From Roseibacillus sp. (GTDB lineage Bacteria; Verrucomicrobiota; Verrucomicrobiia; Verrucomicrobiales; Akkermansiaceae), in the NCBI GenBank assembly GCA_022448985.1, contig JAKVCR010000035.1, positions 1 through 35,584 of the forward strand: a DNA stretch of 35,584 nt. Reading direction: 5' to 3'. This document shows positions 9,704 through 29,434 of the stretch, piece by piece; within the stretch, counting starts at the first letter, position 1, and every line of letters begins with the position of its first letter. The notes beneath the pieces were generated by a model. The model ran no database searches and had not been told where the DNA came from. It worked only from the letters and a program-made list of their open reading frames with translations. A program made the position numbers and the translations under genes.

Positions 9704-9771
9704 GGGATGAGTTCGCGGCCTTAGCAAGGCGAGCCCTCCTCTGCAAGTGGAGGAATCCGATTTCCGCTGGT

Positions 9772-13354: not shown

Positions 13355-13498
13355 CCAGCGTTGCGCAAGTGACTCTTGCGAGAGCTGGGGCAGAAGAACA
13401 GAGAGGAGAGGAGGGGCCGTCCTGGGTCTGGGGGCTGCCCAGGGACCTTGCCCGTTGCCGTAAACGGAAGCGCAGCGAACAGTCCTGCGGCAACTAAT
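13355..13498. terminator. Convergent intergenic region with several hairpins, possible bidirectional terminator
   Basis: This 144-bp gap lies between converging sulfatase stops. CGCAAG at 13364-13369 pairs with CTTGCG at 13375-13380 (5-nt loop), ten bases after the plus-strand stop. CCTGGG at 13421-13426 pairs with CCCAGG at 13438-13443, and GTTGCCG at 13454-13460 pairs with CGGCAAC at 13488-13494. None is followed by a clear T tract in either direction, so intrinsic termination is uncertain. No gene is seen here. Confidence 0.35.
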
Positions 13499-14896
13499 CT
13501 ATTCATTGGGGGCACGCTCGGATCTGGCCTTGAACTCGGATGCGGCTTTTTCAGGTAGCCACTGGGAAAGTTCCCTGATGACCGCTTGGTGGGCGGGATC
13601 CTTCGCAAGGTTGTGGAATTCGTCGGAGTCGGTTCGGTGATCGTAGAGCTCCTTGGCTCCGTCGCGATAGACAATCAAACGCCAATCCCGGGTGCGAATG
13701 GAGTGATTACCAAAGTATGAGGAGGTAATCGCCGGTTGCTTTCTGGGCTTTGAAGGATCGCGCAGTTGAGGAACCAGGGAAAGCCCTTCAAGGTGAGGGG
13801 GCTTCGGTAATTGACACAGTTCGGCCAGGGTTGGGTAGAGGTCGAGCAGGCTTGCAGGTTCCTTGCAGGGCTTGCCGGGCTGAACCCCCGGCCCGGCAAT
13901 AAGCAGCGGAACGCGGGTGGACTCCTCCCACAGGGTGCGCTTGGCCCAATGCTGTTTTTCACCCAGGTGCCAGCCATGGTCACTCCACAGGACGACCAGG
14001 GTGTTATTGGCATGAGGGCTGGAGTTCAGGGCATCCACGACAATGCCTACGCAATGGTCGACAAAGCTCACCGAGGCCAGATAAGCGTGAGTCAGGCTTC
14101 GCTGGCTTCCACTGCCGACCACCTCGGCGTGGGTCGGGGCTACTGCGTAGTTATTTATGCCCAGAAAGTTTTTCGGAAGATCATCCAGGTCAGATTCTGG
14201 ATTCTTGGGCAGGGTAATCTTGGCCGCCTCGTACTTATCAAACCACTTGGGCGGCACAAAGAGCGGGACGTGCGGACGGAAGAAGCCGACGGACATGAAG
14301 AACGGCTTGTCAAAATCCTCCCGGAGCGTCTTGGCCGCCCTGTGTGCCAGTTGGATATCGGCCATCTCGGCGTCCTGCCCCGGATAGGCTCCCCAGTCCC
14401 AGGCGCCGCTCCAGTTGGCGGGCCGACTCATCGGCTTCCTCGGCCGTGGGCTTCGCTTCCGGCCAAGCGACCGTTCAATGTCCCCGGCTAATCTCCCCTT
14501 GAAATTATGGTGCAACACCTTCCCGCCGGACAAGGTGGTGTACCCGTGATCCTTGAAGTAGCGTTGGATAGTAGGCACGTCCTTGAGCGCGGGGAGATCC
14601 TCATACGTTGGCCCGAGTTCATAGCTGCCGTGCGTGGTTGGCGCGACGCCCGACATCACGCTGGTCCGCGAAGCCGAACAGACCGGCACCGCGCAATGGG
14701 CATTGATGAAATTGCGCCCCCGTTTCGCAAGCGCATCCATATGCGGAGTGACCGCCTGGGGGTGGCCATCGAGAAAGCCAACCCAGTCATTCAGATCGTC
14801 GATGGCAATGAACAAGACGTTGGGCTTCGTTGGCTTGGCCCAAATCGGAAGGGGAAGCAGGAAAGCGAGGAGGATCAGGAAGATGAGGGGTTTCAT
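13499..14896 (-). CDS. Exported sulfatase, iduronate-2-sulfatase-like (S1_7 type)
   Basis: This 465-residue protein starts at ATG 14896, which is preceded by AGGAAG seven bases upstream and gives the signal peptide MKPLIFLILLAFLLPLPIWA. FIAIDDLNDWVGFL holds the metal aspartates. The signature is C73-S-A-S-R77, followed by SVMSG. GGKVLHHNF supplies Lys and His, FFRPHVPLFVPPKWF is the conserved substrate-side loop, and [15 protein letters not shown] is the second metal site. The tail KELYDHRTDSDEFHNLA is typical. It is the last of four sulfatases read from 19155; its start is 17 nt after the preceding stop. The closest relative in the window by eye is the adjacent 14914-16329 gene, but they differ enough that a recent duplication is unlikely. 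Confidence 0.94.
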   Translation of the reverse strand: MKPLIFLILLAFLLPLPIWAKPTKPNVLFIAIDDLNDWVGFLDGHPQAVTPHMDALAKRGRNFINAHCAVPVCSASRTSVMSGVAPTTHGSYELGPTYEDLPALKDVPTIQRYFKDHGYTTLSGGKVLHHNFKGRLAGDIERSLGRKRSPRPRKPMSRPANWSGAWDWGAYPGQDAEMADIQLAHRAAKTLREDFDKPFFMSVGFFRPHVPLFVPPKWFDKYEAAKITLPKNPESDLDDLPKNFLGINNYAVAPTHAEVVGSGSQRSLTHAYLASVSFVDHCVGIVVDALNSSPHANNTLVVLWSDHGWHLGEKQHWAKRTLWEESTRVPLLIAGPGVQPGKPCKEPASLLDLYPTLAELCQLPKPPHLEGLSLVPQLRDPSKPRKQPAITSSYFGNHSIRTRDWRLIVYRDGAKELYDHRTDSDEFHNLAKDPAHQAVIRELSQWLPEKAASEFKARSERAPNE

Positions 14897-14913
14897 GGGA
14901 CTTCCTGTTGAGG

Positions 14914-16329
14914 TCACTTCTGGAACTTGTCGAACCAGTCCTGAACCTTCAGCCCGGGGTGCTGATCGGCCGGGATCATTTTGATCAGGCTGCTCTTAGT
15001 CTTTCTGTGTTCGGCCTTTTTCGCCAGGTTGGTCCACTCGTTCGGATCGCCCCGGTGATCATAGAGTTCCTCGCTGCCGTCCTCGTAACGGATGTAGCGC
15101 CAGTGCTCGGTGCGGATCGAGGTGTTGCCTTCCCCGTATGATGAAATAGCAGGCGGGCGCGGTATGGATGGATCGGCTAACTGGGGCGTTATGGACTTCC
15201 CGTCAAGCCAGCCGGGAACCTGAAGCCCGGCGAGCTCCACCAGCGAGGGATAGACGTCAATCAGGCTGGCTGGTTGGGTGCAGATCGAACCGGCCTTGAC
15301 TCCCGGGCCGCGAACGATGAAGGGAATATGGGTGGTCTGTTCCCAGATCGCGCCCTTGCACCAGTGCTTCTTCTCGCCGAGGTGCCAGCCGTGGTCGCTC
15401 ACCAGCATGACGATGGTCTCACGACCGCGGGGATTGTTCTTCAAGCCTTCAAGAAACCGGCCGATCTGGTAGTCGACGAACGCGATCGAGGCCTGATACG
15501 CGCGGATGGTGGCATCCCACTCGTTGTTGGCAGCGATGTATTCGTGATCGCTCAAGCCCTTGTGCATGGGCTTGTGGGCATGGCTCCGTGCCAGCTTGCG
15601 GGCAAAGTCTGGCATGTCGGCCCAATCGTCTACCCCGTCCGGTTCGGCAGGGCGGCGGATCGAGTCGGGCGGGAATAACTCGAACCAGGCCTTTGGAACC
15701 TGTAACGGGCGATGAGGGCGATAGAAGCCGACCGACATGAAGAGGGGCTTCTCGGTGACTTTCTGCCACTGCTCGAGCGCCCAGCTTGCTACCTTGTAGT
15801 CCCCCATCTTGTCATCGGTGACGTCGAGGGCGTAGCCGTCGTTGGGCGCTCTCATAGCATGGAAGTTATCCTTACCCTTCGGGGGCTTGGGATCTCTCGG
15901 CCGACCGAAAAGGGCATCACCGACCTTGCCGGGGTGGCCGTGGAAGACCTTGCCGCCGCTGGCAACCCGGTAACCGTTGCCCATGAAAAACTGCTGCATG
16001 CTCGGCGTCTTGATTTTACTTTCCCCGGAGTGCTTGGCGTTGAAGTAGGTGCCGGTCTTGAAGGGGTAGATGCCGTGATTGAGGCTGGTGCGCGAGGGCC
16101 GGCACTGCGGGGAGTTGCAGTAGGCCTGGGAGAAGAGCATGCCGCTCTTGGCAAGGGCATCGATGTTCGGGGACTTCGCATCTGGATGTCCGCCGAGACA
16201 TCCCACCCAGTCATTGAGATCATCCACGATGATGAAAACGATGTCGGGCGACTTGTTCTTCGCCCAGGAGAAGTGAGCCGTTGCGATAAATGCAACCAGG
16301 CAGCAAAGAGTGGATCGGAACGTGCTCAT
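14914..16329 (-). CDS. Exported sulfatase, iduronate-2-sulfatase-like (S1_7 type)
   Basis: The 471-residue reading starts at ATG 16329, giving the signal peptide MSTFRSTLCCLVAFIATAHFSWA; a longer open frame to 16419 would overlap the upstream sulfatase. FIIVDDLNDWVGCLGGHPDAKSP is the metal-binding start, the signature is C76-R-P-S-R80, and GGKVFHGHPG carries Lys and His. GFYRPHRPLQVPKAWF and [14 protein letters not shown] complete the site. The residue after the signature is TSLNHG rather than the usual TSLMTG, a small deviation in the helix that holds the formylglycine. The C-terminus reads EELYDHRGDPNEWTNLAKK. The start is 13 nt after the stop of the preceding gene, so translation is probably coupled. 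Confidence 0.94.
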   Translation of the reverse strand: MSTFRSTLCCLVAFIATAHFSWAKNKSPDIVFIIVDDLNDWVGCLGGHPDAKSPNIDALAKSGMLFSQAYCNSPQCRPSRTSLNHGIYPFKTGTYFNAKHSGESKIKTPSMQQFFMGNGYRVASGGKVFHGHPGKVGDALFGRPRDPKPPKGKDNFHAMRAPNDGYALDVTDDKMGDYKVASWALEQWQKVTEKPLFMSVGFYRPHRPLQVPKAWFELFPPDSIRRPAEPDGVDDWADMPDFARKLARSHAHKPMHKGLSDHEYIAANNEWDATIRAYQASIAFVDYQIGRFLEGLKNNPRGRETIVMLVSDHGWHLGEKKHWCKGAIWEQTTHIPFIVRGPGVKAGSICTQPASLIDVYPSLVELAGLQVPGWLDGKSITPQLADPSIPRPPAISSYGEGNTSIRTEHWRYIRYEDGSEELYDHRGDPNEWTNLAKKAEHRKTKSSLIKMIPADQHPGLKVQDWFDKFQK

Positions 16330-16342
16330 ACAGGCGGCCTGG

Positions 16343-17827
16343 TTACTTTTTCTTTTTCGAGCGGGGCGATTCCCCGATTTCCTGCATCGGGGAGCCATGG
16401 CGGGCAATGAGCTGATCACAGCGGCCCCGCATCCGTTTCAGCGCGGAAGCATTTTCTTTATTCAATGCGATGTTAGCCAGTTGGGCAGGATCGGTTTTCA
16501 AATCGTGGAGAAACTCGAAGGGCGGCTTGTCCGGTCCATCGACAAAATAGCGTGCGTAGGACCAGTCAGTCCCACGGACCCCTTCCCAGCGCGGGATAGT
16601 ACGCGGGACGGCGAGGAACTCGCAGAGAAACTCGCTCCGCCAGTCCCCGGGCGCCTTGCCCCTGAGGAGGGGCAACAGGCTGCGGCCGGTGTGATTGACG
16701 GGAGCGGGCAGACCTGCGAGATCGATGATGGTGGCCCCCAGGTCGCTGTTGAGAGCCATCTCCCGGCGGATCACACCGTGGAGCCTGCGGGCTGCCCGCG
16801 GATCGGCAATGATGAGAGGAATGCGCAGCGATTCGTCGTAGTGGGTCCATTTCCCCGCGAATCCGCGGTCGCCGAGATAGTAGCCGTTGTCGGCGGAGTA
16901 GATGATGACAGTGTTTTCGTAAAGACCCTGCTTCCTGAGCTGGTTTACGAGGCGGCCGAGGACATGGTCGATGCCGCTGAGCATGCGGAAATAGGCCCGC
17001 ATGTTGGTCTGGTATTTCTCGGCAGTGTCCCAGCGCCAGAAGAAGCGCTCCCGGTTGAGGGACTTCTTGAGGAATTCGGGGTGGGCTTCATAGATTGCGG
17101 CATCGTTAAGGGAAGGGAGAGGCATTTTCTGGTCCTCGTATTTGCCGTTCATTACCTTGGGCCAGGGGAAGTGCCCGCTGCCTGGACGTTTGTCCCTGTC
17201 CTCGGCATGGGTGGCATTGAAGGAGAGCTGGAGACAGAAGGGCTTGCCCCTGGGCTGTTCCTTGAGGAATTCGATTCCCCAGTCTCCCAGGATCTGGGTT
17301 GTGTGACGGGTGCTTCCGTCAGCTTGTACCTTGAAGTAAGGCTTCCGGCCCAGCTTGCGGCGCACGTCCCACATGGTGGTGGCCTCTTTCGCGGCAATGG
17401 AGACGTGTTCCTTGCCCAGGTGTCCGGTGCGGTAGCCGGCGGCCTTGAGGCGGCTGAAGTAGCTGGTCCGGCAAAGGTCGGGGTTGAGTGGTCCCGGTGA
17501 TGTGCGGTAGAGGTGCCGGCGTTCGGAGCAACCGGTGAAAAGACAGGCCCGGCTTGCCCAGCAGGTGGAGGTTGTCACGAAGGCATTCTCGAAACGCACC
17601 CCCCTGTCGGCGAGGAGATCGATATTGGGGGTCTTGACCACCGGGTGCCCTGCACAACCGAGGGTATGGTTGCGCTGATCGTCGGCGAAAATAAAGAGGA
17701 TGCTGGGCGGGGCAGGGGGGAGTCCGTTGCCGCCCGGGGGCTTGGCGGCAGCAAGCCCCGAGCAGGCAGAGAGGAGGATGGCGAGAGCCCGTGACATGAG
17801 GGAAAGGGGACGGAGGCGGGCCATCAT
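16343..17827 (-). CDS. Sulfatase, possible lipoprotein (C-W-A-S-R signature)
   Basis: The 494-residue reading starts at 17827, where ATGATGA overlaps the stop of the preceding gene; ATG 17824 and ATG 17797 are alternatives. All give a signal sequence ending in ILLSAC then SG, which matches a lipobox (Leu-Ser-Ala-Cys, Cys22), so the product may be membrane-anchored by lipid; cleavage after LAAA is the alternative. FIFADDQRNHTLGCAGHP is the metal-binding start, the signature is C89-W-A-S-R93, LGKEHV supplies Lys and His, and YSADNGYYLGDRGFAGKWTHYDES is the second metal site. The FENAFVTTSTC context and the DNGYYLGDRG block resemble N-acetylglucosamine-6-sulfatase-like proteins (S1_11), but the segment after the signature (TGCSERRHLYRT) is unusual. 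The C-terminus ends in a basic SKKKK tail. Confidence 0.9.
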   Translation of the reverse strand: MMARLRPLSLMSRALAILLSACSGLAAAKPPGGNGLPPAPPSILFIFADDQRNHTLGCAGHPVVKTPNIDLLADRGVRFENAFVTTSTCWASRACLFTGCSERRHLYRTSPGPLNPDLCRTSYFSRLKAAGYRTGHLGKEHVSIAAKEATTMWDVRRKLGRKPYFKVQADGSTRHTTQILGDWGIEFLKEQPRGKPFCLQLSFNATHAEDRDKRPGSGHFPWPKVMNGKYEDQKMPLPSLNDAAIYEAHPEFLKKSLNRERFFWRWDTAEKYQTNMRAYFRMLSGIDHVLGRLVNQLRKQGLYENTVIIYSADNGYYLGDRGFAGKWTHYDESLRIPLIIADPRAARRLHGVIRREMALNSDLGATIIDLAGLPAPVNHTGRSLLPLLRGKAPGDWRSEFLCEFLAVPRTIPRWEGVRGTDWSYARYFVDGPDKPPFEFLHDLKTDPAQLANIALNKENASALKRMRGRCDQLIARHGSPMQEIGESPRSKKKK

Positions 17828-19155
17828 GGAGCGGTTTCCGGGCCAGCCCACCAGGTATCAAGGGTGGCCCGGAGCTGCTGGACCTTCCCGGGGTGCCGGG
17901 CGGCGAGGTTCTTCGTTTCCGCCGGGTCGACGCTCAGGTTGTAGAGCTCTGCGGGCCTGGCTTGGGCCGCACCCTGGTGATGGGAGAGCAGCTTCCAGTC
18001 GCCCGTGACCACGAAACGGGTCTGCACGCTGAGGTTGGGCTTGCTGACATCATGGATGTCATGATCGTAGGCCGCCCCGAAGACCGCATTGCGTTTCCCG
18101 AGGGCCGCCCGGTCGCGCAGGTCAATCCCGTCCATCGTTGGAGGGACCTTGAGGCCGCAGGCTTTCAGGATCGTAGGGGCGAGGTCAATCGAACTCACGA
18201 GGGTCTGCTCGTCGAACTTCTGCACGACCTTGCCGGGCCAGCGGATCATGATGGGGGTGCGGATCCCGCCTTCGTTGGGGGAACGCTTGGATCGTGGGGC
18301 GTAGCGACCGCTATCGGCGCTCTGGATCCATCCGTTGTCGGTAACGTAGAGGACAACGGTGTTTTTCCGCAGGCCCTCCTTGTCGAGGTGGGCGAGGAGC
18401 TCGCCACAGGTTTCATCGAACCACTCGCACATGGCCCAGTAGCGGGCAACGAATTTGGAGTCAGATTTCTTCCGGTATTTTTCGAAGAGCCGGGCAGGGG
18501 GGTTGTGCGGAGTATGCGGGAGGAAGGGGGCGTGCCAGATGAAGAAGGGCTTTTCCTGCTCTTTCGCCTCGGTGATGAAGTCGGTGATGGGCTTGATTCC
18601 TTGTCGGCTGACCCTGAGACCAGCATCGCCGTGACGTCCGCCTCGCTTTGGGTCGCCATGTGTCATGGCGTGGGTGAACCCGCCCCTCTTTTTTGGATCG
18701 CCCTCCCACCACTTGCCGGTCTGCAGGGACAGGTAGCCGACCTGGCCAAGAATGTGGGCCAGCCCCGGGTCGTCATCGATGCGGTCCATGATGGTCTCGT
18801 AGAGGGGCTTCAGCTCGGGGTTGGAGCGACCCCTCTTCTTGCCGGGAGGGATTCGGGGGTCATTGCCGGTGATGCCGTGCTGATGCGCGTACTTTCCACT
18901 GAAGATCGAGGCCAGGGAGGGGCGGCAGAGGGGGGAGGCAACGTAGCCCCGGGTGTAGGTCAGGGACTCCCCCGCCAATTTGTCGAGGTGGGGTGTCCTG
19001 ATGTGCGGGTGGCCGAGGAAGGAGTAGTCTCCCCAAGCCTGGTCGTCCGAGATGATAAGCAGGACGTTGGGTCGGGAAACGTCCTGGGCCCGACTGATGG
19101 CAGGAGTAATGAGAATGAGGCAGGCAACGGGAAAGAATGGGAGGAGAAAGCGCAT
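17824..19155 (-). CDS. Divergent sulfatase-like protein with C-R-P-S-L in place of the formylglycine motif
   Basis: This 443-residue protein starts at ATG 19155 with the signal peptide MRFLLPFFPVACLILITPAISRA. The fold is clearly sulfatase: IISDDQAWGDYSFLGHP, the HAPFLPHTPHNPP loop, VTDNGWIQ with D273 and N274, K290 and the ELYNLSVDPAETKNLA tail. However, the signature reads C77-R-P-S-L81, with Leu instead of the near-invariant Arg, and the usual GKWH block reads GKWW, so W150 replaces the catalytic-site His. The segment RGGFTHAM, GDPKRGGRHGDAGL suggests a distinct PVC subgroup that shares these changes, from memory only. It may be an active enzyme with altered chemistry, or not a sulfatase. 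It is the first gene of a four-sulfatase operon and overlaps the next by 4 nt. Confidence 0.9.
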   Translation of the reverse strand: MRFLLPFFPVACLILITPAISRAQDVSRPNVLLIISDDQAWGDYSFLGHPHIRTPHLDKLAGESLTYTRGYVASPLCRPSLASIFSGKYAHQHGITGNDPRIPPGKKRGRSNPELKPLYETIMDRIDDDPGLAHILGQVGYLSLQTGKWWEGDPKKRGGFTHAMTHGDPKRGGRHGDAGLRVSRQGIKPITDFITEAKEQEKPFFIWHAPFLPHTPHNPPARLFEKYRKKSDSKFVARYWAMCEWFDETCGELLAHLDKEGLRKNTVVLYVTDNGWIQSADSGRYAPRSKRSPNEGGIRTPIMIRWPGKVVQKFDEQTLVSSIDLAPTILKACGLKVPPTMDGIDLRDRAALGKRNAVFGAAYDHDIHDVSKPNLSVQTRFVVTGDWKLLSHHQGAAQARPAELYNLSVDPAETKNLAARHPGKVQQLRATLDTWWAGPETAP

Positions 19156-19259
19156 GACAGGATGTCGACGGTGTGGGAATCGTGGCGGGATGGCAACTCC
19201 GGGACGCTTATCGGTGAACATTTCCTTTATTCACGCTGTCTGACTCTTACCCTTTCGCT
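19156..19259. promoter_or_regulatory. Divergent region between a sulfatase operon and the sugar-activation genes
   Basis: The 104 bp separate the minus-strand operon start at 19155 from the GTG at 19260. The plus-strand half is AT-richer (TTTCCTTTATTCAC), a fitting place for a promoter of the kinase/transferase genes. A shared regulator of both units could bind here, but no clear operator was seen apart from a small GACA/TGTC palindrome just before 19155. Confidence 0.35.
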
Positions 19260-20120
19260 GTGATTCCCAATAAAGCTGTCGTTACTGCCGCCAGCCCGAC
19301 CGAGTACCACCTGCCTCTTCAGACGCTGGTCGACTCGGAAGGGGTGGCTAAGACCGCTCTGGCCATTATTCTCGATGACCTTTTCGCCTCGGGAATCGAG
19401 TCAGCGGCAGTAATCGTTCATCCTGGGACGCGCGAGTCCTACCTGCAGGCCGCCGGGGAGCACGCCGATCGCCTCACCCTGATCGAGCAAGGTGTCCCCC
19501 GGGGTTACGGGCATGCGGTGTGGAGCGCCCACGAATTCACCGGGGAGGATTCCTTCGTCCTCCTGGTGGGAGATCACCTCTATCTCAGTTACGAGGAGGC
19601 GTCCTGCGTCCGGCAAATGCTGGAGGTGGCCGCCACTCATGATGGCTGTATCTCGGCGGTCAACCCGACGCATGAAAGCCAGCTGCGCTATTACGGTGCG
19701 ATCGCCGCAACGCGGGTGCCGGCTTCCCCCTCCCTATTCGTGGTGCATGACGTGGTGGAGAAGCCCACTCCCACCCTGGCGGAGCAGGAGCTCATTATTC
19801 CTGGCCTGCGCGCGGGCAACTACCTCTGCTTTTTCGGGATGCACTCGCTCACCGCGGGTGTGATGGAGCATCTGGACGAAGAGGTCTCGCGGCTGGGGGA
19901 GGGGGAGCTCCTCGAGCTTACGCCCACGTTGGCCTACATGGCCAGGTCGGAGAAGTATCTTGCGGCAGAGCTGGCGGGACAGCGTTTCAATGTTGGGGAG
20001 CGTTATGGTCTTCTGCGGGCGCAGCTCTCCCTGGCCCTGGCCGGCCCCCACCGTGACGAGGTCCTCACTGACATTATTGAGATCACTGCTCATTCCCGCC
20101 CTGGATGCCCAAGCTCCTGA
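19260..20120 (+). CDS. Nucleotidyltransferase-like protein (GalU-type fold, degraded signature)
   Basis: This 286-residue protein begins at GTG 19260 ([20 protein letters not shown]). The segment [18 protein letters not shown] at 76-93 followed by [13 protein letters not shown] with the metal-site GDH at 104-106 matches glucose-1-phosphate uridylyltransferases of the GalU type. The N-terminal signature, normally A-A-G-x-G-T-R-x-x-P with a later P-K, is replaced by [10 protein letters not shown] and no P-K follows, so the loop that binds the nucleoside triphosphate looks disabled. It may be a regulatory or specificity subunit, as seen in other nucleotidyltransferase pairs, or bind a different nucleotide. 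It overlaps the fusion gene downstream by 16 nt and is divergent from a sulfatase operon with 104 bp between. Confidence 0.82.
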
Positions 20121-23100
20121 ACATCATCACGAGTGAGGATTCTTCGGTACGCGATACTGCGCTGGCGGAGGCCTGTGCGGAGCTTTCTCTGCCGGAACTC
20201 CTGGAGGAATGTATCGAGCTCGATCGGTTTCGCCGGGAGGCTGGGAATCTCTACGAGCGGGTGCGGGCGCTTTTTTTCCTTTCCGCCATTCACCGCTTTC
20301 ACCTTCCCCCCAAGCTGGGGAGGCAGATGGGCTATATCCCCTTTGAGGGCCAGGAGCATCTTCTTCGTCGCAGATTCGCGGAAGCCATCGACGTTTTCCA
20401 CCTCGCGGTAGCCGAGCAGGGAGCCAACGATGCTCTTTCTTCCGCTCTTGCGGAGGGCTACCACGAGCTCGCCTTCCAGACCCTGGCCTCCCAGGTCCGG
20501 CGTTCGGTGCGGACGGTAAGGGGAAACCAGTGGATGTTTCGCATGGGTCATCCCGCGGACCATCCGCTTTCGATGGTCGATGAGCTCCTGGAACCACTCC
20601 CGGACCGCTCCCGCCGGATCCTGCGGGAACGGACGCCGGTGCGAATGGATCTCTCCCACGCGGGATGGTCTGACATTTTCTTCCTGGGTATGGATTATCC
20701 CGAGGGGGCCCGTGTCCTCAATGTTTCCGTAGACCTGGGGGTCCATGGCCGGGATTCGGAACCACGGCCTCCCATCGAGGCCCATGTCCGGGTCATCGAT
20801 GAGCCGGTTATCGTGCTGACCTCCGTGGATCTGAAAGCCACCGCGCGGATCGGGAGCCTGGGAGAAATCTTTGACTTCGCGAAAGATGCCCTGGGCCTGC
20901 TCAAGGCCGCGGTGATTGCCTCCGGGGTGGTGCCGCCCGGGATTGAGGGATCAGGGCAGCGCCTGGAAAACCTTCTGGAACGCATGGTGGGGCCGGGGCG
21001 GGGCCTCGAGCTGGTCTCGTGGGTGAACGGTATTCCCAAGGGATCGCGGCTCGCCGTTTCGACAAATCTGCTGGCGGCCCTGATCGGGGTGCTCATGCGG
21101 GCGACCGGGCAAACGGAGACTCTCACCGGGCCCCTCCGGGAGAATGAAAGGCGTCTCGTCCTTGCCCGGGCCATTCTCGGGGAATGGCTGGGCGGATCGG
21201 GCGGGGGGTGGCAGGACTCGGGTGGGGTGTGGCCCGGGATCAAGTTGATTTCGGGGGTGCCGGCGGAGGAAGGAGATCCGGAGTTCGATGTTTCGCGTGG
21301 ATGCCTGCTGCCGACTCATCATGTCTTCGGGGAGGACGAAATCCCGGAGTCATCACGGCAGGCGCTTCAGGATTCGTTGGTGCTTGTGCATGGGGGGATG
21401 GCCCAGAACGTGGGGCCCATTCTCGAGATGGTGACCGAGAAGTATCTCCTGCGGTCAGCGGCTGAGTGGGCAGGCCGACAGGAGGCGCTTTCTCTTCTGG
21501 ATGAATTGGTAGAGGCCCTTAAAAGAGGGGATATCGAGGCCCTGGGGCGGGCCGCCACCCGGAACTTCCGGGGCCCGATCCAGAGCATCATTCCGTGGGC
21601 CACTAATCTGTTCACGGAGACCCTCATTGCGCGGGCGGAACAGGAATTCGGGGAGGACTTCTGGGGCTTCTGGATGCTGGGGGGCATGTCAGGAGGAGGG
21701 ATGGGATTTATTTTCGCTCCGGAGCGCAAGGCTGAAGCCCAGGAAGCAATGGCTCGCATCATGAAGGAGACCAAGGATCAGTTGCAGGAGGCCCTGTCCT
21801 TCGGGATGAATCCGGTGGTTTACGATTTTTCGATAAACCATACCGGCACCTGTGCTGATCTACTGGAGGGGGGAACGCAGCTTCCGGAGGGCTATCTCCG
21901 GTTGCAGGAAGCGCCCGCCGAAGACGGGAAGGGAGCAAAGCAGCTCGATGCGGAGGACAACGCCCTGAGGCAGCTCCTGGAGGAAAACGGGTTTGATGCC
22001 GAGGTTCACGAGGGAATCCGGGAAGGCATACTCGCTGGCCGGATCAGCATGCCGGGCAATCGCCTTGCTCCCACGACCCGGATCGAGGATGTGGCTGCTG
22101 CTGACGTTGTTGATTGCACCGTTGGGGATCAGGGAGGGGAGAAGGAGGCCTGCCGCCTGGGAGCGGAGGCCCTGGCGTCCGGCGAGGTGGCGGTCCTTAC
22201 CCTTGCGGCGGGGGCTGGTTCGCGCTGGACCGGGGGCGCGGGAACCTGCAAGGCCCTCAACCCGTTCGCTCCGCTGGACGGGAGCTATCGCACCTTTCTG
22301 GAGGTTCATCTCGCCAAGTCCCGCAAGACGGCCCGGGAGCATGGGGTCCCCTTGCCGCACATCTTTACCACGTCCTATCTAACCCACCGGCCTATCAGCG
22401 CGTTTCTTGAGAGGGTTTCAAACTATCACTACGATGGCCCTCTTCTGCTCTCACCGGGCCGGGCGGTGGGATTGCGGATGGTGCCGACCGAGCGCGACTT
22501 GCGTTTTGCATGGGAGGAGATGCCCCAGCAGCAGCTCGATCCACAGCAACAGAAAATCCGCGATTCGGCCCGGTCCGCCCTCCTTGACTGGGCGAGGAAC
22601 TGCGGAGAAGGGAGTGATTACACCGAGAACCTGCCTGAACAGTGCCTCCATCCGAGGGGGCACTTCTATGAGATGCCGAATCTTCTGCTGAATGGCACCC
22701 TGCGCCTGCTCCTGCAGGAGCGTCCCCAGCTCAAGACACTGCTGCTCCACAATGTCGATACCCTGGGGGCTTCTGTCGACCCCGCTATTCTGGGACGGCA
22801 TCTCAAGCGCGGCCACGGATTGACCTTTGAGGTGATCACGCGACGGCTGGCGGACCGGGGGGGCGGATTGGCATGCGTTGATGGAGTGCCTCGCCTTGTG
22901 GAAGGCCTTGCCATGCCTGATGCCGAGTCGGAGTTCGGGCTTTCGTATTACAACTCGCTGACAACCTGGATCGACCTCGACCAGTATCTTGCGCTTCTCG
23001 GCCTGACCCGGGAAGAGATCCGGACCAACGATCCGGCCAGGCTGGCCGAGGCGGTACTTGACCTGGCGGAGCGGGTGCCGACCTACCTCACCATCAAGGA

Positions 23101-23314
23101 TGTGAAAAAGCGGTGGGGTTATGGCCAGGAAGCGGTTTACCCCGTAGCCCAGGTCGAGAACCTCTGGGGAGACCTGACCACCCTGCCCGAAGCGAATTGC
23201 GGGTTTTTCGTGGTTGAGCGGCAACGTGGCCAGCAGCTCAAGGACCCGGCCCAGCTGGACAGCTGGTTTACGGACTCTTCCGACTACGTCCAGAACCTGT
23301 GCGAGTGGGAGTGA
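20105..23314 (+). CDS. Fucokinase-like GHMP kinase fused to a UDPGP-type uridylyltransferase
   Basis: This 1069-residue cytosolic protein has three parts. Residues 1-170 are helical with no clear homology. Residues 177-545 are GHMP kinase: [12 protein letters not shown] at 179-190 then [10 protein letters not shown] matches the substrate loop of L-fucokinases, [18 protein letters not shown] at 309-326 is the ATP-binding motif, [15 protein letters not shown] at 366-380 is fucokinase-like, and [14 protein letters not shown] at 524-537 is motif 3. Residues 695-1069 are UDPGP-type (PF01704): [11 protein letters not shown] at 698-708, K716, and [14 protein letters not shown] at 880-893. It could phosphorylate a sugar at C1 and transfer a nucleotide to it. 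In Bacteroides Fkp the transferase precedes the kinase; here the order is reversed and the transferase family differs. The sugar is not shown by sequence; L-fucose is a guess. Confidence 0.85.
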
Positions 23315-23321: not shown

Positions 23322-24833
23322 TTACTGGAGTTCCGGCACCGGATCTTCCGGCCTGATTTCCCCGCCCTGCCAGATGGTCTTCCCGGTCTCCTTGTCGTAG
23401 GTCAGGATCCGGTGGGCGGAGCGGGGGGCGGGCTTCCGGTTCACTTCAGGAATCCAATTTGCCAGCCTGTCGGCCTGGGCCCGCATGGCGGGGTTCTGCC
23501 TGGCGCGCGGCGGAGCCAGGAGATTGTTCCACTCATGGGGGTCCTGGGTCATGTCATAGAGTTCTTCCGAGCCATCGGCGTAGCGGATGTAACGCCAGTT
23601 TTCGGTGCGAATCCCGTGATTGTCGTGATTGTGGGTGGTGATCGCGGGCCACTTGCGGGGCGCCTTGGCGTTCTTGAGCTGTGGGACCAGGGTGTGGCCC
23701 TCCAGTTTTTTGTTCTCCGGGAAATCAAGGAGCTCGACGAGGGTGGGATAGATGTCGAGTAGTTCGGCGGGCCGGCTGCAGACCTGGCCGCCCTTCACCC
23801 CGGGACCCGCAAAGAACAGCGGCACGCGGGTCCCGTCATCCCAGAGGGTGTTCTTTCCGGTGATTTCCTTTTCCCCGATGTGAAAGCCATGATCGGACCA
23901 GAGCACTATAATGGTGTTTTTCTCGAGCCCCGTTTCCCTGAGGGTGTCCAGCAGGCGCTGGACCTGGGCATCGATGAAGGAGGTGCAGGCGAGGTAGGAC
24001 CGGGTGAGGTTTTCCCATTGCTTCGTATCCTTGAGGAACTTGAGGCGCGGCTCGGGAAGTTTCCAGTGCATGTACCATGAGAAACGGGGTGTGTCGGCGC
24101 GATCGCTGGGTTGCACGACAGGGAGCTTCAGCTGATCGACCGGGTGCAGGTCCATCCACTTTTGAGTGGCATAGCAGGGGACGTGGGGGAGGAAGAAGCC
24201 AGTGGCGAGGAAGAGAGGCTTTTTCCGGTCTGATTTTGCGTAGGCCTTGAGGCGATCGACTGCCCAGCTGGCGACCTGGTAGTCGCCCTTGTCTCCGTCC
24301 TGGTGGGGGAAGGTTCCCCAGTCGACGAGGCGATGAGGTTGCGGGGTGTTGACGAGCTTCTTTGGCGGGAATGGCTTTCCGGATGCCCCGGGGCCGACCT
24401 CGTGCCACTCGACGAATCTGCCCTCGACGGATCGCCCGGAGCGACCGTGATAGATCTTTCCGGTCATGGCAGTGTGGTAGTTCCCGTGCCGGGCGAAGTA
24501 CTGGGGCAGGGTCAGCAGGCCGGAGAATTCAGGGAGGGTTCGGAACCAGGGAGCCAGTCCGTAAACGCCGGTGGTGCCGGGGCGCAGCCCGGTCATGAGG
24601 CTGGTGCGCGAAGGGTTGCAGAGGGGCGACTGGCAATGGGCATTGGTGAAGACCGTGCCACGGCTGGCGAGGGCGTCGATGGAGGGCGTGCGGGCCTGGG
24701 GGTGCCCGCCCAGGCACCCGATCCAGTCATTCTGATCATCGATCGCGATCATCAGGATGTTGGGAAGTTCCGCTGCGCCGAGGACGCGGACCCCGGAGCT
24801 CAGGACCCATAGGAGAAGAAGGAGACGTTTCAT
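23322..24833 (-). CDS. Exported sulfatase, iduronate-2-sulfatase-like (S1_7 type)
   Basis: This 503-residue protein has a signal peptide (MKRLLLLLWVLSSGVRVLGA). IAIDDQNDWIGCLGGHP is the metal-binding start with Gln in place of the commoner Leu, the signature is C72-N-P-S-R76, MTGKIYHGRSG carries Lys and His, and VLWSDHGFHIGEKEI is the second metal site. FFLPHVPCYATQKWM is the substrate-side loop. The C-terminus reads EELYDMTQDPHEWNNLL and continues about 55 residues beyond the usual end, with the ILTYDKETGKTIWQGGEI segment. It is the last of five sulfatases read from 30922, and its stop is 7 bp from the stop of the converging fusion gene. The start is 9 nt after the previous stop; CCCTCCCC precedes the ATG instead of a Shine-Dalgarno. 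Confidence 0.94.
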   Translation of the reverse strand: MKRLLLLLWVLSSGVRVLGAAELPNILMIAIDDQNDWIGCLGGHPQARTPSIDALASRGTVFTNAHCQSPLCNPSRTSLMTGLRPGTTGVYGLAPWFRTLPEFSGLLTLPQYFARHGNYHTAMTGKIYHGRSGRSVEGRFVEWHEVGPGASGKPFPPKKLVNTPQPHRLVDWGTFPHQDGDKGDYQVASWAVDRLKAYAKSDRKKPLFLATGFFLPHVPCYATQKWMDLHPVDQLKLPVVQPSDRADTPRFSWYMHWKLPEPRLKFLKDTKQWENLTRSYLACTSFIDAQVQRLLDTLRETGLEKNTIIVLWSDHGFHIGEKEITGKNTLWDDGTRVPLFFAGPGVKGGQVCSRPAELLDIYPTLVELLDFPENKKLEGHTLVPQLKNAKAPRKWPAITTHNHDNHGIRTENWRYIRYADGSEELYDMTQDPHEWNNLLAPPRARQNPAMRAQADRLANWIPEVNRKPAPRSAHRILTYDKETGKTIWQGGEIRPEDPVPELQ

Positions 24834-24842
24834 GGGGAGGGA

Positions 24843-26327
24843 TCAGTTGAGTTTGGCATCGAGTTGCCTGCTGAGGGCGGTGGCGAGATCGGGTTTGGCC
24901 CCGGAGATGTTTTCAATTTCCCCGGGGTCCTTTTCATGATCGTAGAGCTCAAGGTGGGACACCTTGCCACCCCGGGAGTGGCGGATAAGCCGGTAGCGGT
25001 CGGTACGGATCGTTTCCGTTCCGCCCTTGTAGGAGACGGCGGTGCGGCCGGGGGTCGCAGGGTCCTCAAGATGCGGACGGAGGGAGGTCCCCGCCAGTTC
25101 TCCCGGAGGTCGCAGGCCGGCGAGGTCGCAGAGGGTGGGGAAAATATCGACCGTTTCCACGATGCCATTGGCAGGCTGCCCTCTGGACTTTTCCAGTCCG
25201 GGGGCAACCACGATGAGCGGGGAACGCAGGGACTCCTCGAAAAGGGAGTGTTTGCCCCAGATAGCATGTTCGCCGAGGTGCCACCCGTGGTCGCCCCAGA
25301 GGACGATGATGGTCCTGTCTGCCTCGCCGGACTTCTCCAGGCCGGCGATGAGGCGGCCGACGAGGGCGTCGGCATAGGATACACAGCCTGCGTAGTGTTT
25401 GCGCACCCTGGTGGCGAACTCCGGGTCGCTGCGCGGGTCGCGCTTCCATCGGTTGTACTTCATGAACTCGCCGCTGCCGTGCCAGGTGGTCTTGCCCACC
25501 GGTTTGCTGGGATGGGGAATGCCGGGGAGGGCCACCTCATCGTAGAGTCTGACGTAGCGTGCGGGAGCCCCAAAGGGGAGGTGAGGGCGCAGGAAGCCAA
25601 CGGCGAAGAAGAAGGGTTTCTTGTCCCCAGCCAGCAGGTTGAGCTGTTCGAGGGCCCCCTCGATGGTCGGTCCGTCCGGGTAGGAATTATCATCTCCGTC
25701 AAAGGACTGGAGGACATCCATGTCCTTGGCATTCCTGCGAATCTCCCCGTTGGCCTGACCATGCATGAGTCCGCGCGGGTGCTGCCAGGGCCCGCTGGGG
25801 CAGAGGTGGCGGGTCCATGCTCCCGGCATTTCCGGTTTGCGGTCGTCGTTCCAGTCCGGGCCTCCGCGGCCTCCGGGATGGTGCGACACCTTCCCGATCG
25901 AGACGGTGGTGTAGCCGTTCCTGCGAAACCAGGCGGGCATGTTGGTAGTCCGGATCTGCTCGTTGCTGGAGAGACGGAAGAGCGCTCCGTTGTCCCGTGG
26001 TCCATAGCGACCGGTCAGGAGGGTGTAGCGCGACGCGCCGCAGGTGGGCGCCTGGACGTAGTGCCGGGTGAAGGCCCGTCCCCGTCTGGCCAGGGCATCA
26101 ATGTTGGGCGAGTGGATGTATCCGGCCCCAAAACATTTGAGCTCGGGCCGGAGGTCATCGATGCAGATGAGGAGCACATTGGGGCGCTCCTTCCCTGCCG
26201 CAGGAAGTGGCGTGGGCAGAAGGAGGCAGCCGGGGAGCAAGAGCAGCAGGTGTTTTATGGGCCGAGAGGAGAGGAGAATTCCCAGCCGGAACAGGGCCCC
26301 TGGCATCGCGATGCTTGTCCGGATCAT
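24843..26327 (-). CDS. Exported sulfatase, iduronate-2-sulfatase-like (S1_7 type)
   Basis: This 494-residue protein has a long positively charged N-terminus and a hydrophobic stretch, [19 protein letters not shown], ending near residue 44. ATG 26327 and ATG 26306 are both possible starts; the latter gives a shorter n-region. [21 protein letters not shown] is the metal-binding start, the signature is C96-G-A-S-R100 followed by [20 protein letters not shown] carries Lys and His, and [20 protein letters not shown] is the second metal site. The tail [18 protein letters not shown] is typical. The [10 protein letters not shown] start is the form seen in many PVC and Bacteroidota S1_7 enzymes. It is fourth in the five-gene group; the 59-nt spacer upstream is AT-rich with a run of T but no hairpin. 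Confidence 0.93.
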
Positions 26328-26386
26328 TGATGTTCTACTGGCGGTTGGGTTCTTTTTAGCGGGGTAATAAAAAAGCAGAGGGTTCG

Positions 26387-27775
26387 TTATTTTTTCAGCA
26401 GGCGGGGGGACGCTTTTTCAACCCAGCCCGCTTTACGCTGTCCCTTGCCGGGTCGGCCTACATCGCCAAGGTCTTCGCGGGCGGCCTCGGCATGGGCCAG
26501 GAGCCGCTTGACGACCGCCGGGTTTTCAGCGGCCACATTACGGTCCTCGTGGATATCTGAAGCGAGGTTGAAGAGGGCGAGTGCTTTTTTGCCCTCGGGC
26601 CTGCCCCAGTTGCGTTTCTTCTGCTCCATGGCGACGAAGAGTTTCCAGTCACCCGAGCGCACCGCCTGCAACTGATCCATCTGGTAGTAGAAGAAGGCAT
26701 CGCGGGGATGGTCCTTTGACGTGCCGTTGAGGATGGGCCAGATGTCCCTGCCATCAATAATACGGTCAGCGGGGGCCTTGCCGCCGGAGATCGTGGCGAA
26801 GGTGGGGAGCAGGTCCATTGTGTTGGTGAGGGCTCCACTGCTGCTTCCGGCAGGGATCCTGCCTGGCCAGCGCACGACACAGGGTACGCGCATGCCCCCC
26901 TCATCCGTGCGTCCCTTGCGACCTCGCAGCGGCAGGTTGCTGCCCTGTTTTTCTCTCGCGGAGCCGTTGTCCGAGGTGAACAGCACCAGGGTATGGTCAT
27001 CAATGCCCTCAGCCTTGATTGCCTTGAAGAGTTCCCCCATGGACCAGTCGATTTCCTGGACCCAGTCGCCATAAGCTCCGTTCTTGCTGGTGCCCTTGAA
27101 TTTTTTTCCGGGGACCAGCGGCAGGTGTACGGCGGTATGAGGAAGATAGAGGAAGAAGGGCTTTTTACTGTTGTTCTTGATGAACTTGACCGCCTCGGTG
27201 GTATATTGCGCAGTGATCGTGGTGTCCTGCTGCACACTGTCCTGGACGGCCGTGAGGTCCCGCACCAGCGGCAGCGGAACGCCTTTTCGGTTCATGTCGT
27301 TGCTGTAGGGAATGCCGAAATAATGGTCGAAGCCGTGGCTGGTGGGCATGAAATCGGGGTGGTCGCCCAGATGCCATTTGCCGATGCACATGGTGGCATA
27401 GCCCTGCTCCTTTAATACCTCGGCAATGGTGATCTCGCTGGGGTTGAGGCCCTTGCGCGCGGCGGGAAAGAGCACGCAGAGGTTCTTTTCATCCACGTGC
27501 ATGTTGACGCGCCGCGGATAACAGCCGGTCATGAGGCTGGAGCGCGACGGGGTGCATACCGGGCAGGTGGAATAAAAGTCCGTAAGCCTCATGCCTTCCC
27601 GGGCCATCTGGTCCAGAACGGGCGTGGCATGTGTCTTGGAGCCGAAGGGCCCGATGTCCGCGTAACCAAGATCGTCACAGAAGACAACGATGATGTTCGG
27701 CTTCCGTTCCGCGGCCTGCACAAAGGGCAAGGCGGGCAGAAAGGCGATGAGGGCAAAGAGGATTTGTTTTCTCAT
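26387..27775 (-). CDS. Exported arylsulfatase A-like sulfatase
   Basis: The 462-residue reading starts at ATG 27775, giving the signal peptide [22 protein letters not shown]; an open extension to 27886 runs into the previous gene. [22 protein letters not shown] is the metal-binding start, the signature is C74-T-P-S-R78 in [27 protein letters not shown] carries Lys and His, and [23 protein letters not shown] is the second metal site. The stretch [14 protein letters not shown] is typical of the arylsulfatase A / galactosamine-6-sulfatase-like enzymes. The end differs: the region after [10 protein letters not shown] is followed by a basic tail ([23 protein letters not shown]). It is the third gene in the five-sulfatase group. 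Substrate is unknown. Confidence 0.94.
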
Positions 27776-27870
27776 ATGCGATGAAGGTCCAGGCGATTTA
27801 CTCGTGGGAACGGTTATGATTACATGCGTTGGAGTGGGGAGGCCGGTCGATCGCAGGGAGGGGGAGCAGG

Positions 27871-29364
27871 CTACTCGTAGCGCCACTTCATGATCCAGGG
27901 ATCTTCCGTACGTTTCTGCATGGCCTTGAGCTTGTCCTGGTAGGTAGCGAGAACCTTGGCGAATTGAGGATCGGCAGCGAGGTTTCGCGTTTCGGAGGGA
28001 TCGGAGGAGATGTCGTAGAGTTCAAACTGCGGGCGGTTGATATAGGAATCGACAGTGCGATTCCCATATCGGGCCTCTGGCCCCTTCGCGTACTGGGCCT
28101 GCCAGGTGGAAGCCGCCCAGAGATCAGAAGCGAAGGGGTAAGGCTGGCGCCAGGCAATGTTCCAGATGAGCTTGTATTGCCGGTCCCGTACCACCCTCAT
28201 GGGATAATACATCTGGATTTCGTGGAAGGTGTGGGAGGCCCCGATTTCGTCCCAGCCCTCTGGATTGCCCTCCTCGACAATAGGCACCCACGAGCGGCCA
28301 TGGTAGGACTTTACCGGGCGACCTGCATTTTCGCCCGGGGGAACCCTGGGGACCTCGATCATCCGCTTTGGGCCTCGGTTCTTCGGATCGTATGCGCCGG
28401 CAAGGTCGAGGATGGAGGGAGTGATATCCACATGGCTGATCATGGCGTTGTTGACCACGCCTTTCTTTTCTGCCCCGGGATGACGGACAATGAAGGGGAC
28501 GCGCAAGCCCGCTTCGTAGACGGTGGTCTTGCCGCCGGGAAAGGCCATGCCATGGTCGGCGGTGTAGATGACGACGGTGTTGTCCCACTGCGCGCTTTCT
28601 TTCAGGAGGGCTACCAGATGGCCCAGTCCCTGGTCGATGCGGGAGCAGCTTTGATGATACTGGGCGATCTCTGCACGGCACTCGGGAGTGTCCGGAAGAA
28701 ACCCGGGGACTTTTATCTTGTCCGGGTCGTAGAACACTTCGGTTACCTCCTTGTGTGCTCCCCGGTTGGGCTTGTTGCCAAAGAGATCGGGTTTGAACTT
28801 GAGCTTTGAGGCGCGGTCGACCCCTCCGCCGCGATGGGGATCGGAAGTACAGAAATAGAGAAAGAAAGGCCGGTCTGATTTCTCGGTAAAGAGCTCACGG
28901 CAGCTTTCCGCCATCAGGGGTGCGTTACGCGCGTTGCCGGACAGGCGCCGTTCGAACTCAAACACCGCGGCAGGAGCCACGTGGTACTTCCCGATCTGCG
29001 CGGTACGGTAACCGGCCTGTCTCATCTGGAGGGGGAGACTGACGGCGGCCACAGAGGGGAAGGAGGCAAACTTGTGAAAGGCGTGGGTGTGGCCATACTG
29101 GCCGTTTCGATGGTTGTGCAGCCCGGAGAGGATGACCGAGCGACTGGCGGAACAGGAGGCGGTAGTGGCGAAGGCGTGGGTGAAGCGTGTTCCTTCCTCC
29201 GCCAGGGCATCAAGGTGTGGGGTCCGGATGTCGGGGCTTCCATAGCACCCCGCGATGGGGCTCTGGTCGTCGGTGACGAAGAGAATGATGTTGGGGCGGG
29301 GAGCGCCAGGCATCGGAAGGGCAGCAATGAGCGCGAGGAGCAGGGCGGAAATGAAGGGTCTCAT
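27871..29364 (-). CDS. Exported sulfatase, heparan N-sulfatase/sulfamidase-like (S1_8 type)
   Basis: The 497-residue reading starts at ATG 29364 with the signal peptide MRPFISALLLALIAALPMPG; the frame is open to 29523 but that part is not signal-like and overlaps the previous gene. LFVTDDQSPIAGCYGSPDIRTP is the metal-binding start, the signature is C71-S-A-S-R75 in TTASCSASRSVILSG, AQIGKYHVAP carries Lys and His, and YTADHGMAFPGGKTTVYEAGLR is the S1_8-type second metal site. FCTSDPHRGGG and the HVDITPSILDLAG segment also fit the sulfamidase-like group. The tail ELYDISSDPSETRNLA is followed by about 40 residues ending DPWIMKWRYE, a common S1_8 ending. It is the third sulfamidase-like protein of the window. 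Confidence 0.93.
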   Translation of the reverse strand: MRPFISALLLALIAALPMPGAPRPNIILFVTDDQSPIAGCYGSPDIRTPHLDALAEEGTRFTHAFATTASCSASRSVILSGLHNHRNGQYGHTHAFHKFASFPSVAAVSLPLQMRQAGYRTAQIGKYHVAPAAVFEFERRLSGNARNAPLMAESCRELFTEKSDRPFFLYFCTSDPHRGGGVDRASKLKFKPDLFGNKPNRGAHKEVTEVFYDPDKIKVPGFLPDTPECRAEIAQYHQSCSRIDQGLGHLVALLKESAQWDNTVVIYTADHGMAFPGGKTTVYEAGLRVPFIVRHPGAEKKGVVNNAMISHVDITPSILDLAGAYDPKNRGPKRMIEVPRVPPGENAGRPVKSYHGRSWVPIVEEGNPEGWDEIGASHTFHEIQMYYPMRVVRDRQYKLIWNIAWRQPYPFASDLWAASTWQAQYAKGPEARYGNRTVDSYINRPQFELYDISSDPSETRNLAADPQFAKVLATYQDKLKAMQKRTEDPWIMKWRYE

Positions 29365-29434
29365 CGTGAGGGTGAGTAATCGGCAGGCGGGTAGTTCTGG
29401 CGAGGGAATAATTTGTTCTCCGGGAACAGGAAGC

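Follow-up and report, generated by a model that had tools for sequence, protein, structure and literature searches.

A kinase-first GHMP kinase–UDPGP-fold fusion and its GalU-like partner gene in Roseibacillus sp.: a candidate system for nucleotide-sugar salvage

Introduction

Arabidopsis FKGP, Fkp and zebrafish GKUP are fused kinase/nucleotidyltransferases for the salvage of free sugars. In Fkp of Bacteroides (NCBIfam PRK13412), the transferase comes first, belongs to family PF07959, and is followed by the kinase. An analysis of November 2025 favoured the origin of all known FKPs from one fusion event (available part of PMC12732313), and a term search of its main text found neither "Verrucomicrobi" nor "UDP". 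Zebrafish GKUP, a glucuronokinase/putative UDP-glucuronate pyrophosphorylase, has a transferase of the short bacterial type first and a glucuronokinase as its kinase; its transferase is not described as UDPGP-type in the available part of PMC3938481. GalF, the E. coli paralogue of GalU, has a damaged GxGTR loop and retains weak activity despite the loop changes. It was suggested that GalF interacts with a nucleotidyltransferase, namely GalU, and regulates it (both from the accessible part of PMC4643126).

In this study, a stretch of 35,584 nucleotides from Roseibacillus sp. (contig JAKVCR010000035.1), referred to as the window, was analysed around a fusion gene and the partner gene that overlaps it. 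All features described below lie on the + strand. Judged by sequence, the fusion appears to share with Fkp the two-step layout for free-sugar salvage, its kinase is closest to that of Fkp by sequence and fold, and the fucose-contacting and catalytic side chains agree. Unlike in Fkp, the kinase precedes a UDPGP-fold transferase and has an altered ATP loop, a helical domain is added at the N-terminus, and a partner gene accompanies the fusion. The transferase shares its catalytic fold with UGP/UAP (PF01704), as well as the residues for phosphate and metal, whereas the base-site Gln and one sugar-site Asn are changed, one Gly of the nucleotide-binding loop is replaced by Ala, the C-terminal beta-helix stretch is absent, and the domain is joined to a kinase. 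Like GKUP, the fusion combines a GHMP kinase and a nucleotidyltransferase (PMC3938481, in part). The partner resembles GalF in being GalU-like with a damaged GxGTR loop (PMC4643126, in part), but the catalytic-lysine segment is missing as well, and the partner accompanies a UDPGP-fold fusion. Two kinase-first GHMP kinase-GalU fusions (L095 and L096) have the same domain order as the fusion, with a transferase part related to the partner. Their kinase matches galactokinase and mevalonate kinase models, the GalU lysine segment is kept, and the UDPGP model is absent from their NCBIfam matches. Two further loci, L098 and L102, resemble them by look; the kinase scan covered L095 and L096. Among the open-access papers listed by keyword searches on fusions, fucokinase, GHMP, regulatory subunits and base recognition, none was recognised as dealing with the fusion protein.

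Domain architecture and distribution of the fusion

The fusion gene (20105..23314) has an ATG start, encodes 1069 residues and contains zero internal stops in the ORF check of the window. These coordinates and every motif quoted in the preliminary description of the locus were found as given there. Domain searches, the predicted structure and near full-length matches in 80 listed loci confirmed an orphan helical domain at residues 1-165 (20105..20599), an Fkp-like GHMP kinase at 169-560 (20609..21784), and a UDPGP-fold nucleotidyltransferase at about 691-1069 (22175..23311) that lacks the C-terminal beta-helix stretch of the aligned UGP proteins. The linker between the two enzyme domains, residues 561-690 (21785..22174), is the least conserved part of the fusion, and most relatives have about 38 additional residues here.

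The predicted structure of the fusion had a mean pLDDT of 84.4 and a pTM of 0.86. The fold search with this model, a step proposed in the preliminary description, returned the Fkp kinase 9iip first (Foldseek E 1.4e-19) and then UAP/UGP structures (E about 1e-16). By sequence, the PDB matches were again 9iip (E 1e-13) and the UGP structure 5weg (E 5.2e-5). PRK13412, the fucokinase/fucose-1-P guanylyltransferase model, matched the kinase half only (E 7.2e-23, 80 bits against a cut-off of 721), and GHMP_kinases_C PF08544 was over its cut-off (E 1.6e-4, 22.5 bits against 21). UDPGP PF01704 matched with 33.4 bits (cut-off 22; E 2.6e-8), with the best stretch at 849-960, and PF07959 was absent from the fusion protein in the Pfam search up to E 1. 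The domain, PDB and alignment matches bore out the kinase-first order, the fucokinase-type kinase and the UDPGP-family rather than Fkp-type transferase that had been proposed. No relation between the UDPGP domain and the partner was detectable when their sequences were compared.

The N-terminal domain is helical in the predicted structure. The earlier reading had left about 170 residues here without assignment, and this still holds: the N-terminal 164 residues of the window's protein gave zero Pfam matches up to E 0.1, and the best PDB match of a profile of 24 relatives had E 0.045. The 34 PDB matches at E 0.045-0.91 (33 haemagglutinin chains and one RNA polymerase II-associated protein 3) were judged to be chance, as were nine Pfam families, each matched by one of the 24 members at E 0.021-0.091. 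With the 15 best candidates scored per genome, matches to the domain were confined to those 22 of the 240 genomes that have the fusion, and in the genomes searched it was found in the fusion protein only.

Among pattern-matched stretches in genome contigs, 383 of 401 encoded a relative of the fusion. The 80 loci listed, from a total of at least 80, matched it essentially over the full length with a best-segment identity of 60-89%, and all but two were titled Verrucomicrobiota. Therefore, the fusion ORF is not a chance open frame. The fusion was present in 22 of 240 genomes of the phylum, where scoring was limited to the top candidates of each genome (3 of up to 13, 10, or 15, depending on the search).

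Kinase domain

The side chains of Fkp that bind fucose or catalyse are R592, W599, D601, E751, Q761 and D762 (PMC11982464, in part). They were aligned with R180, W188, D190, E360, Q370 and D371 of the fusion, which were identical in 81/81 and 60/60 rows of the two alignments. The fusion thus has the catalytic R, E and D and the sugar-binding W, D and Q of an Fkp-type kinase, together with the GHMP kinase fold and C-terminal domain. R180, W188 and D190 lie in the motif R180-I191 (20642..20677), which is invariant in both alignments; I191 occupies the position of Fkp T602, which contacts the C3-OH (same source). The alignments placed Q370 and the counterpart of the general base D762, D371, in GGGWQD at residues 366-371 (21200..21217). 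Kinase motif 3, GGMSGGGMG at 526-534 (21680..21706), was found by motif check and alignment.

The ATP-phosphate loop was altered. Fkp IPAGSGLGTSS corresponds to residues 310-321 of the fusion (21032..21067), of which 312-320 were identical in 81/81 rows. In all of these rows Fkp GSGLGTSS is replaced by GSRLAVST, with G715 changed to R315 and G717 to A317, and the Fkp-like glycine-rich phosphate loop of GHMP kinases is absent. The backbone of Fkp G717 contacts phosphate (available part of PMC11982464). The kinase motifs quoted in the preliminary description omitted the altered loop (312-320). Model confidence was below pLDDT 50 at the kinase loops 313-317, 366-369 and 528-530. The replaced loop and its low confidence are consistent with a pseudokinase or sugar sensor, with the transferase domain alone active. 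This is opposed by the invariance of the general base, of Arg, Glu and Gln, and of motif 3, and by the conservation of the kinase, the highest among the four parts of the fusion compared (75% mean pairwise identity among 44 members); such loss of kinase activity is rather improbable. The preliminary description had tied salvage to a kinase that aligns with fucokinases and has its ATP-site residues. Most of the kinase site was indeed kept, but the ATP loop was altered, which goes partly against the salvage idea.

Transferase domain

The reference residues K135, H228, N256, D258 and G227 of AnUGP (roles in PMC10470519, in part) were aligned with K716, H853, N883, D885 and G852 of the fusion, each in 81/81 rows, and N329 with N950 in 80/81. 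E307 and K403 were aligned with E933 and K1046, invariant in 60/60 rows. K716 lies in the nucleotide-binding loop (22196..22258), followed by G852-H853 (22658..22663) and N883-V-D885 (22751..22759). The catalytic K135, H228, K403 and D258 all had counterparts, with K1046 (23240..23242) placed opposite the essential terminal Lys of UGP by the localpair mode, while the genafpair mode aligned the UGP ends differently. Loss of the terminal UGP lysine had been considered and was dropped because of the localpair match. By these alignments, the phosphate and metal residues of UGP are retained in the predicted transferase, whose PF01704 score exceeds the Pfam cut-off and whose fold is that of UGP/UAP.

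The base and sugar sites were different. Gln198 of AnUGP contacts uridine (available part of PMC10470519). It was opposite Trp803 of FAWEEMP, residues 801-807 (22505..22525), in 81/81 rows of a stretch where the alignment is uncertain, and a further relative (L130) had Tyr. Gly123 was opposite Ala702, and the glucose-contacting Asn331 opposite Leu952. UTP use by the fusion, assumed in the preliminary description, was therefore not supported at the base site. A narrower form of the salvage reading, in which kinase and UTP-dependent transfer yield an unusual UDP-sugar, as first proposed, draws on the naming of the closest UDPGP-family proteins by sequence and fold as UTP enzymes and on a GalU-like partner from a UTP-using family. 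Since the base is not fixed by family membership alone, and Gln198 and Gly123 are opposite Trp803 and Ala702, this form is doubtful.

In another narrower form, the Fkp reaction was invented a second time, with the UDPGP-fold domain re-specified for GTP and GDP-L-fucose as the product. The kinase pocket matches that of Fkp, and the Trp803 opposite the uridine Gln adjoins the acidic E804/E805, which may be likened to the acidic Asp31 with which Fkp holds guanine (PMC11982464, in part). The Pfam search of the window's own genome found no PF07959 match, which also favours a fusion that makes GDP-L-fucose. On the other hand, 9 of the 22 fusion genomes had a PF07959 match over the cut-off, which would make the two redundant there, although the match covers nearly the whole profile in one only (G214). 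No guanine-binding motif was demonstrated in the fusion, and the base-site alignment is uncertain. GDP-L-fucose synthesis is accordingly ranked as unlikely. Given the PF07959 matches in these nine genomes, the fusion was rejected as a general replacement of Fkp.

GalU-like partner gene

The partner gene (19260..20120) encodes a divergent GalU-like nucleotidyltransferase of 286 residues and was absent from the preliminary description. By ORF coordinates, it overlaps the start of the fusion by 16 nt (20105..20120), which suggests translational coupling of the two genes. The partner was directly upstream of the fusion in 60 of the 80 listed loci, and it was elsewhere in the genome in 11/11 genomes tested, drawn from the 20 loci without an upstream partner. 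Among the 240 genomes, those with the partner (at least 225 bits; next score 102) were the 22 that carry the fusion, with a Fisher p of 1.3e-31 uncorrected for relatedness. In a second sample (the phylum of G242), the fusion was found in 15 of 151 genomes and a clear partner in 11 of the 15; the score gap was narrow here, with 166 bits for the weakest counted partner and 160 bits for the best match in a fusion-less genome. Of the four genomes without a clear partner, G277 and G360 had a complete fusion; in G335 the N-terminal domain of the fusion was short by about 35 residues, and in G403 the fusion was cut by a contig end.

Sulfatase genes fill the window (15 of 20 neighbouring ORFs scanned). 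One gene cluster, with 59 genes in 9 sources, flanks the pair on both sides in L003 and L004; it would fit sulfatase neighbours shared among close relatives. Across 81 loci and the window, the partner was the only common neighbour, and the next gene cluster was found in 10 of 82 sources. The context therefore does not name the sugar, and a sulfated-fucan role was not adopted for the same reason.

The partner scored 79 bits with the GalU model TIGR01099, below the cut-off of 326.8. Its nucleotide loop of 13 residues (19287..19325) is decayed, whereas the GalU of its own genome has AAGFGTR followed by the lysine segment PKEMLP. The catalytic-lysine column was a gap in 62/62 aligned partners, and the lysine segment and the Thr of GxGTR were each found in 0/62. 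D105 and K168 were kept in 62/62. N244 (19989..19991) is at the aspartate of GalU RYDxG, where the 62 partners had D in 35, N in 26 and H in 1. In the alignment, the lysine was kept by the housekeeping GalU, four kinase-GalU-type ORFs and the partner from Hymenobacter. The lysine segment was also present in L083, L133 and L134, where the partner lies beside a more distant fusion, so loss of partner activity would not be universal. A separate GalU in the genome of the window scored over the cut-off (345 bits); therefore, UDP-glucose supply need not depend on the fusion/partner pair.

These results suggested that the partner is probably non-catalytic. The retained D105 and K168, the lysine segment in the three distant partners and the weak activity of E. 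coli GalF would also suit a weakly active second transferase for a different nucleotide. Against this are the gap at the lysine column and the missing Thr in all 62 aligned partners, and an active partner is considered improbable. Gene overlap, co-occurrence and segment loss were established directly, and from them we infer a physical complex of the fusion with a probably non-catalytic subunit.

Proposed function and significance

The fusion is best explained as an enzyme for nucleotide-sugar salvage in two steps, with a subunit that derives from GalU and is probably non-catalytic, at a probability of about 0.52. Its architecture, conservation and residue matches were observed directly; from these we infer catalysis, the sugar and the nucleotide. 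The GHMP kinase would phosphorylate a free L-fucose-type sugar at its anomeric oxygen, with L-fucose, L-galactose and D-arabinose as the first candidates. The UDPGP-fold domain would then join the sugar-1-phosphate to a nucleotide with release of pyrophosphate. The upstream protein, whose lysine segment was lost in the lineage, may now act as a structural or regulatory subunit, like the suggested action of GalF on GalU. The salvage idea of the preliminary description was partly supported: both catalytic residue sets are largely intact, but UTP use was not borne out.

More tentatively, and with the odds against it, the two genes may form a complex of a new make. The UDPGP-fold transferase would have been re-specified in its base and sugar pockets, and the GalU relative, which lost catalysis after the fusion took its job, would hold or control the fusion. 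The product would be a nucleotide-L-fucose-type sugar unmade by known salvage enzymes. If so, the lysine-keeping partners beside a fusion would be intermediates that persist in other bacteria.

The fusion/partner pair looks like an uncharacterised machine that recycles a fucose-like sugar. If true, fusion of a fucokinase-type kinase with a transferase happened twice; the second time, the transferase came from another family and the order was reversed, and a spare GalU was turned into a partner subunit. Partners that retain the catalytic segment and those that lack it would then form a visible series from enzyme to pseudoenzyme, and the fusion would be a candidate biocatalyst for nucleotide sugars.

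Domain organization and distribution of the fusion

The 1069-residue protein encoded at 20105-23314 (+) had been described preliminarily as a fucokinase-like kinase joined to a UDPGP-type transferase. The reading frame was intact, and every motif quoted in that description was found. In the Pfam search, the GHMP C-terminal domain was located at residues 468-550 (E 1.6e-4) and the UDPGP domain at residues 849-960 (E 2.6e-8). PRK13412 was the sole NCBIfam match at E ≤1; it covered the kinase half (E 7.2e-23) and, at 80 bits, fell far below its cut-off of 721. The structure prediction, built on 60 aligned sequences (the window's own plus 59 from the 80 loci described below), had a mean pLDDT of 84.4 and a pTM of 0.86. 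The top PDB match in Foldseek was the kinase of Fkp, the Bacteroides L-fucokinase/GDP-fucose pyrophosphorylase (9iip, E 1.4e-19), followed by structures of UDP-GlcNAc and UDP-glucose pyrophosphorylases (UAP and UGP; E ~1e-16).

Residues 1-165 were helical in the predicted structure. This segment of the window's protein had no Pfam match at E ≤0.1, and its PDB search gave nothing better than E 0.045. With the 15 best candidates of each genome scored, its profile matched exactly the 22 fusion-bearing genomes. The segment is an orphan domain, seen only within the fusion in the genomes searched.

A scan of genome contigs returned 401 pattern-matched stretches, 383 of them relatives of the fusion, and the best 80 were kept as loci. 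These 80 covered virtually the whole query at 60-89% identity (best segment), and 78 locus titles named verrucomicrobial taxa, the exceptions being L016 (Bacterium) and L080 (Armatimonadetes). The kinase was the best conserved part among 44 members (mean pairwise identity 75%), followed by the UDPGP domain (71%), the N-terminal domain (65%), and the linker (51%). The fusion was present in 22 of 240 genomes sampled from the window's phylum (20 of 132 genera); genus g2, in the window's own family, had none in its 19 listed genomes. A relative with 50% identity on a Hymenobacter volaticus plasmid (L083:8001-11277) had a broken reading frame, split over several frames without a listed annotation; the partner gene next to it was open and bore the annotation sugar phosphate nucleotidyltransferase. 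In genome G265, an ORF at L135:863-2314 (-) joined the N-terminal domain straight to the later UDPGP part and lacked about residues 165-771, through a deletion or an assembly fault.

Kinase and transferase sites

Kinase residues were mapped by alignment with Fkp, using the roles given in PMC11982464. Fkp Arg592, Trp599, Asp601, Ser719, Ser720, Glu751, Gln761, and Asp762, the last being the proposed general base in that text, corresponded to R180, W188, D190, S319, T320, E360, Q370, and D371, all invariant in 81 of 81 rows. Fkp Thr602 was replaced by I191, and the glycine-rich loop had Arg315 for Gly715 and Ala317 for Gly717. These differences speak against a plain fucokinase. Since the altered loop was identical in all 81 rows, it looks selected rather than decayed. 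This conserved change is the main observation left uncovered by any explanation offered.

The UDPGP domain was compared by alignment with proteins of related genomes, both UGP-type (L103-L105) and UAP-type (L106, L107), and with the 514-residue UGP chain 8c0b, whose numbering fits AnUGP in PMC10470519. AnUGP K135, G227, H228, N256, D258, E307, N329, and K403 corresponded to K716, G852, H853, N883, D885, E933, N950, and K1046, the last by localpair alignment only, as genafpair mode places the UGP ends differently. Gln198, Gly123, and Asn331 were changed to W803, A702, and L952. W803, which lies in the least certain stretch of this alignment (residues 774-846), occurred in 81 of 81 rows, with Tyr in one further relative, L130; position 702 was Gly in L133 and L134. 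Most of the catalytic machinery is therefore retained, with differences at a loop glycine, a sugar contact, and, as aligned, a base contact.

GDP-fucose is a possible but disfavoured product of the fusion, because PF07959, the Fkp-type fucose pyrophosphorylase domain, also matched above cut-off in 9 of the 22 fusion genomes, compared with 31 of 218 others. The match was near full length in only one of the nine, G214.

The GalU-like partner

The partner gene (19260-20120, +) overlapped the fusion by 16 nt. Its product is a divergent GalU: it scored 79 bits against TIGR01099 (cut-off 326.8), its top PDB matches were YngB and GalU, and its predicted structure (pLDDT 87.7) had GalU structures as top Foldseek matches. 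A separate GalU above cut-off (345 bits) was found in the same genome.

The partner lay directly upstream of the fusion in 60 of 80 loci, two of them (L076, L078) pieces; with two places in the window's own genome, 62 partners were listed. Two of the other 20 loci had <250 bases of upstream DNA, and all 11 searched had a partner elsewhere in the genome. In the 240-genome sample, partners of at least 225 bits occurred in the same 22 genomes as the fusion, with a next score of 102 (Fisher p 1.3e-31, uncorrected for relatedness). In a second sample (151 genomes, phylum of G242), 15 genomes had the fusion and 11 of these a partner of at least 166 bits, adjacent in 10; the gap was narrow, the top score in the other 136 genomes being 160 bits. 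Of the four without a partner at this level, the fusion was complete in G277 and G360, ~35 residues short within the N-terminal domain in G335, and truncated at a contig end in G403; damaged or cut fusions also occurred in two of the 11 partner-bearing genomes (G265, G408). The association is strong, not absolute.

A second partner copy (91% identity) was found in the window's own assembly at C205:2436-4420 (L002), with the fusion start, residues 1-379 only (88% identity). Given the stated contamination of 5.57%, a co-binned strain is its likely source.

The site analysis drew on an alignment of 62 partners (the window's own, 50 out of the 58 near-complete adjacent ones, and the 11 non-adjacent ones) with six references: the own-genome GalU, the Hymenobacter partner, L095, L096, L098, and L102. 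The catalytic-lysine column was a gap in 62 of 62 partners and K in all references. In GxGTR, Thr was kept in none, the second Gly in 3, and Arg in 40; Thr was also absent from L083, L095, and L102. D105 and K168 were kept in all 62. The RYDxG aspartate was kept in 35, whereas 26 partners, the window's among them, had N at this position and one had H. Fusion-adjacent partners of Hymenobacter, L133, and L134 kept the lysine segment. Loss of partner catalysis is a prediction from these alignments, since weak activity persists in E. coli GalF despite replacement of its T20 and R21 (PMC4643126).

Genomic context and proposed function

The partner-fusion unit lay within a dense sulfatase island (944-19221 and 23325-30922), on the strand opposite to both direct neighbours. 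Pfam detected a sulfatase domain in 15 of 20 neighbouring ORFs scanned, 14 of them on the minus strand; one lactonase-type beta-propeller gene was also present. A 306-aa ORF at 31118-32035 (-) weakly matched a Chlamydia-phage scaffold family below cut-off, probably by chance.

GalU-type domains were also found with other GHMP kinases. ORFs of ~640-690 residues in other Verrucomicrobiota (L095, L096, L098, L102) carried a C-terminal GalU domain retaining the lysine segment; the N-terminal parts of the two scanned, L095 and L096, matched galactokinase and mevalonate kinase models. In a genome without a fusion match, a GHMP kinase gene resembling galactokinase, although it scored under the cut-offs of the models, directly adjoined a GalU-like gene that kept its loop (L139:2414-4000, -). 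The L095 and L096 fusions and the L139 gene pair showed that the partnership of GalU-type transferase and GHMP kinase recurs. Zebrafish GKUP, an experimentally studied kinase-transferase joint protein, has the transferase first (PMC3938481).

The fusion may salvage an L-fucose-type sugar in two steps, a kinase reaction followed by nucleotide transfer, and the GalU-derived partner may act in complex with it as an accessory subunit. Such a salvage enzyme and subunit would account for the conserved sites, the gene overlap, the co-occurrence, and the decay of the partner.
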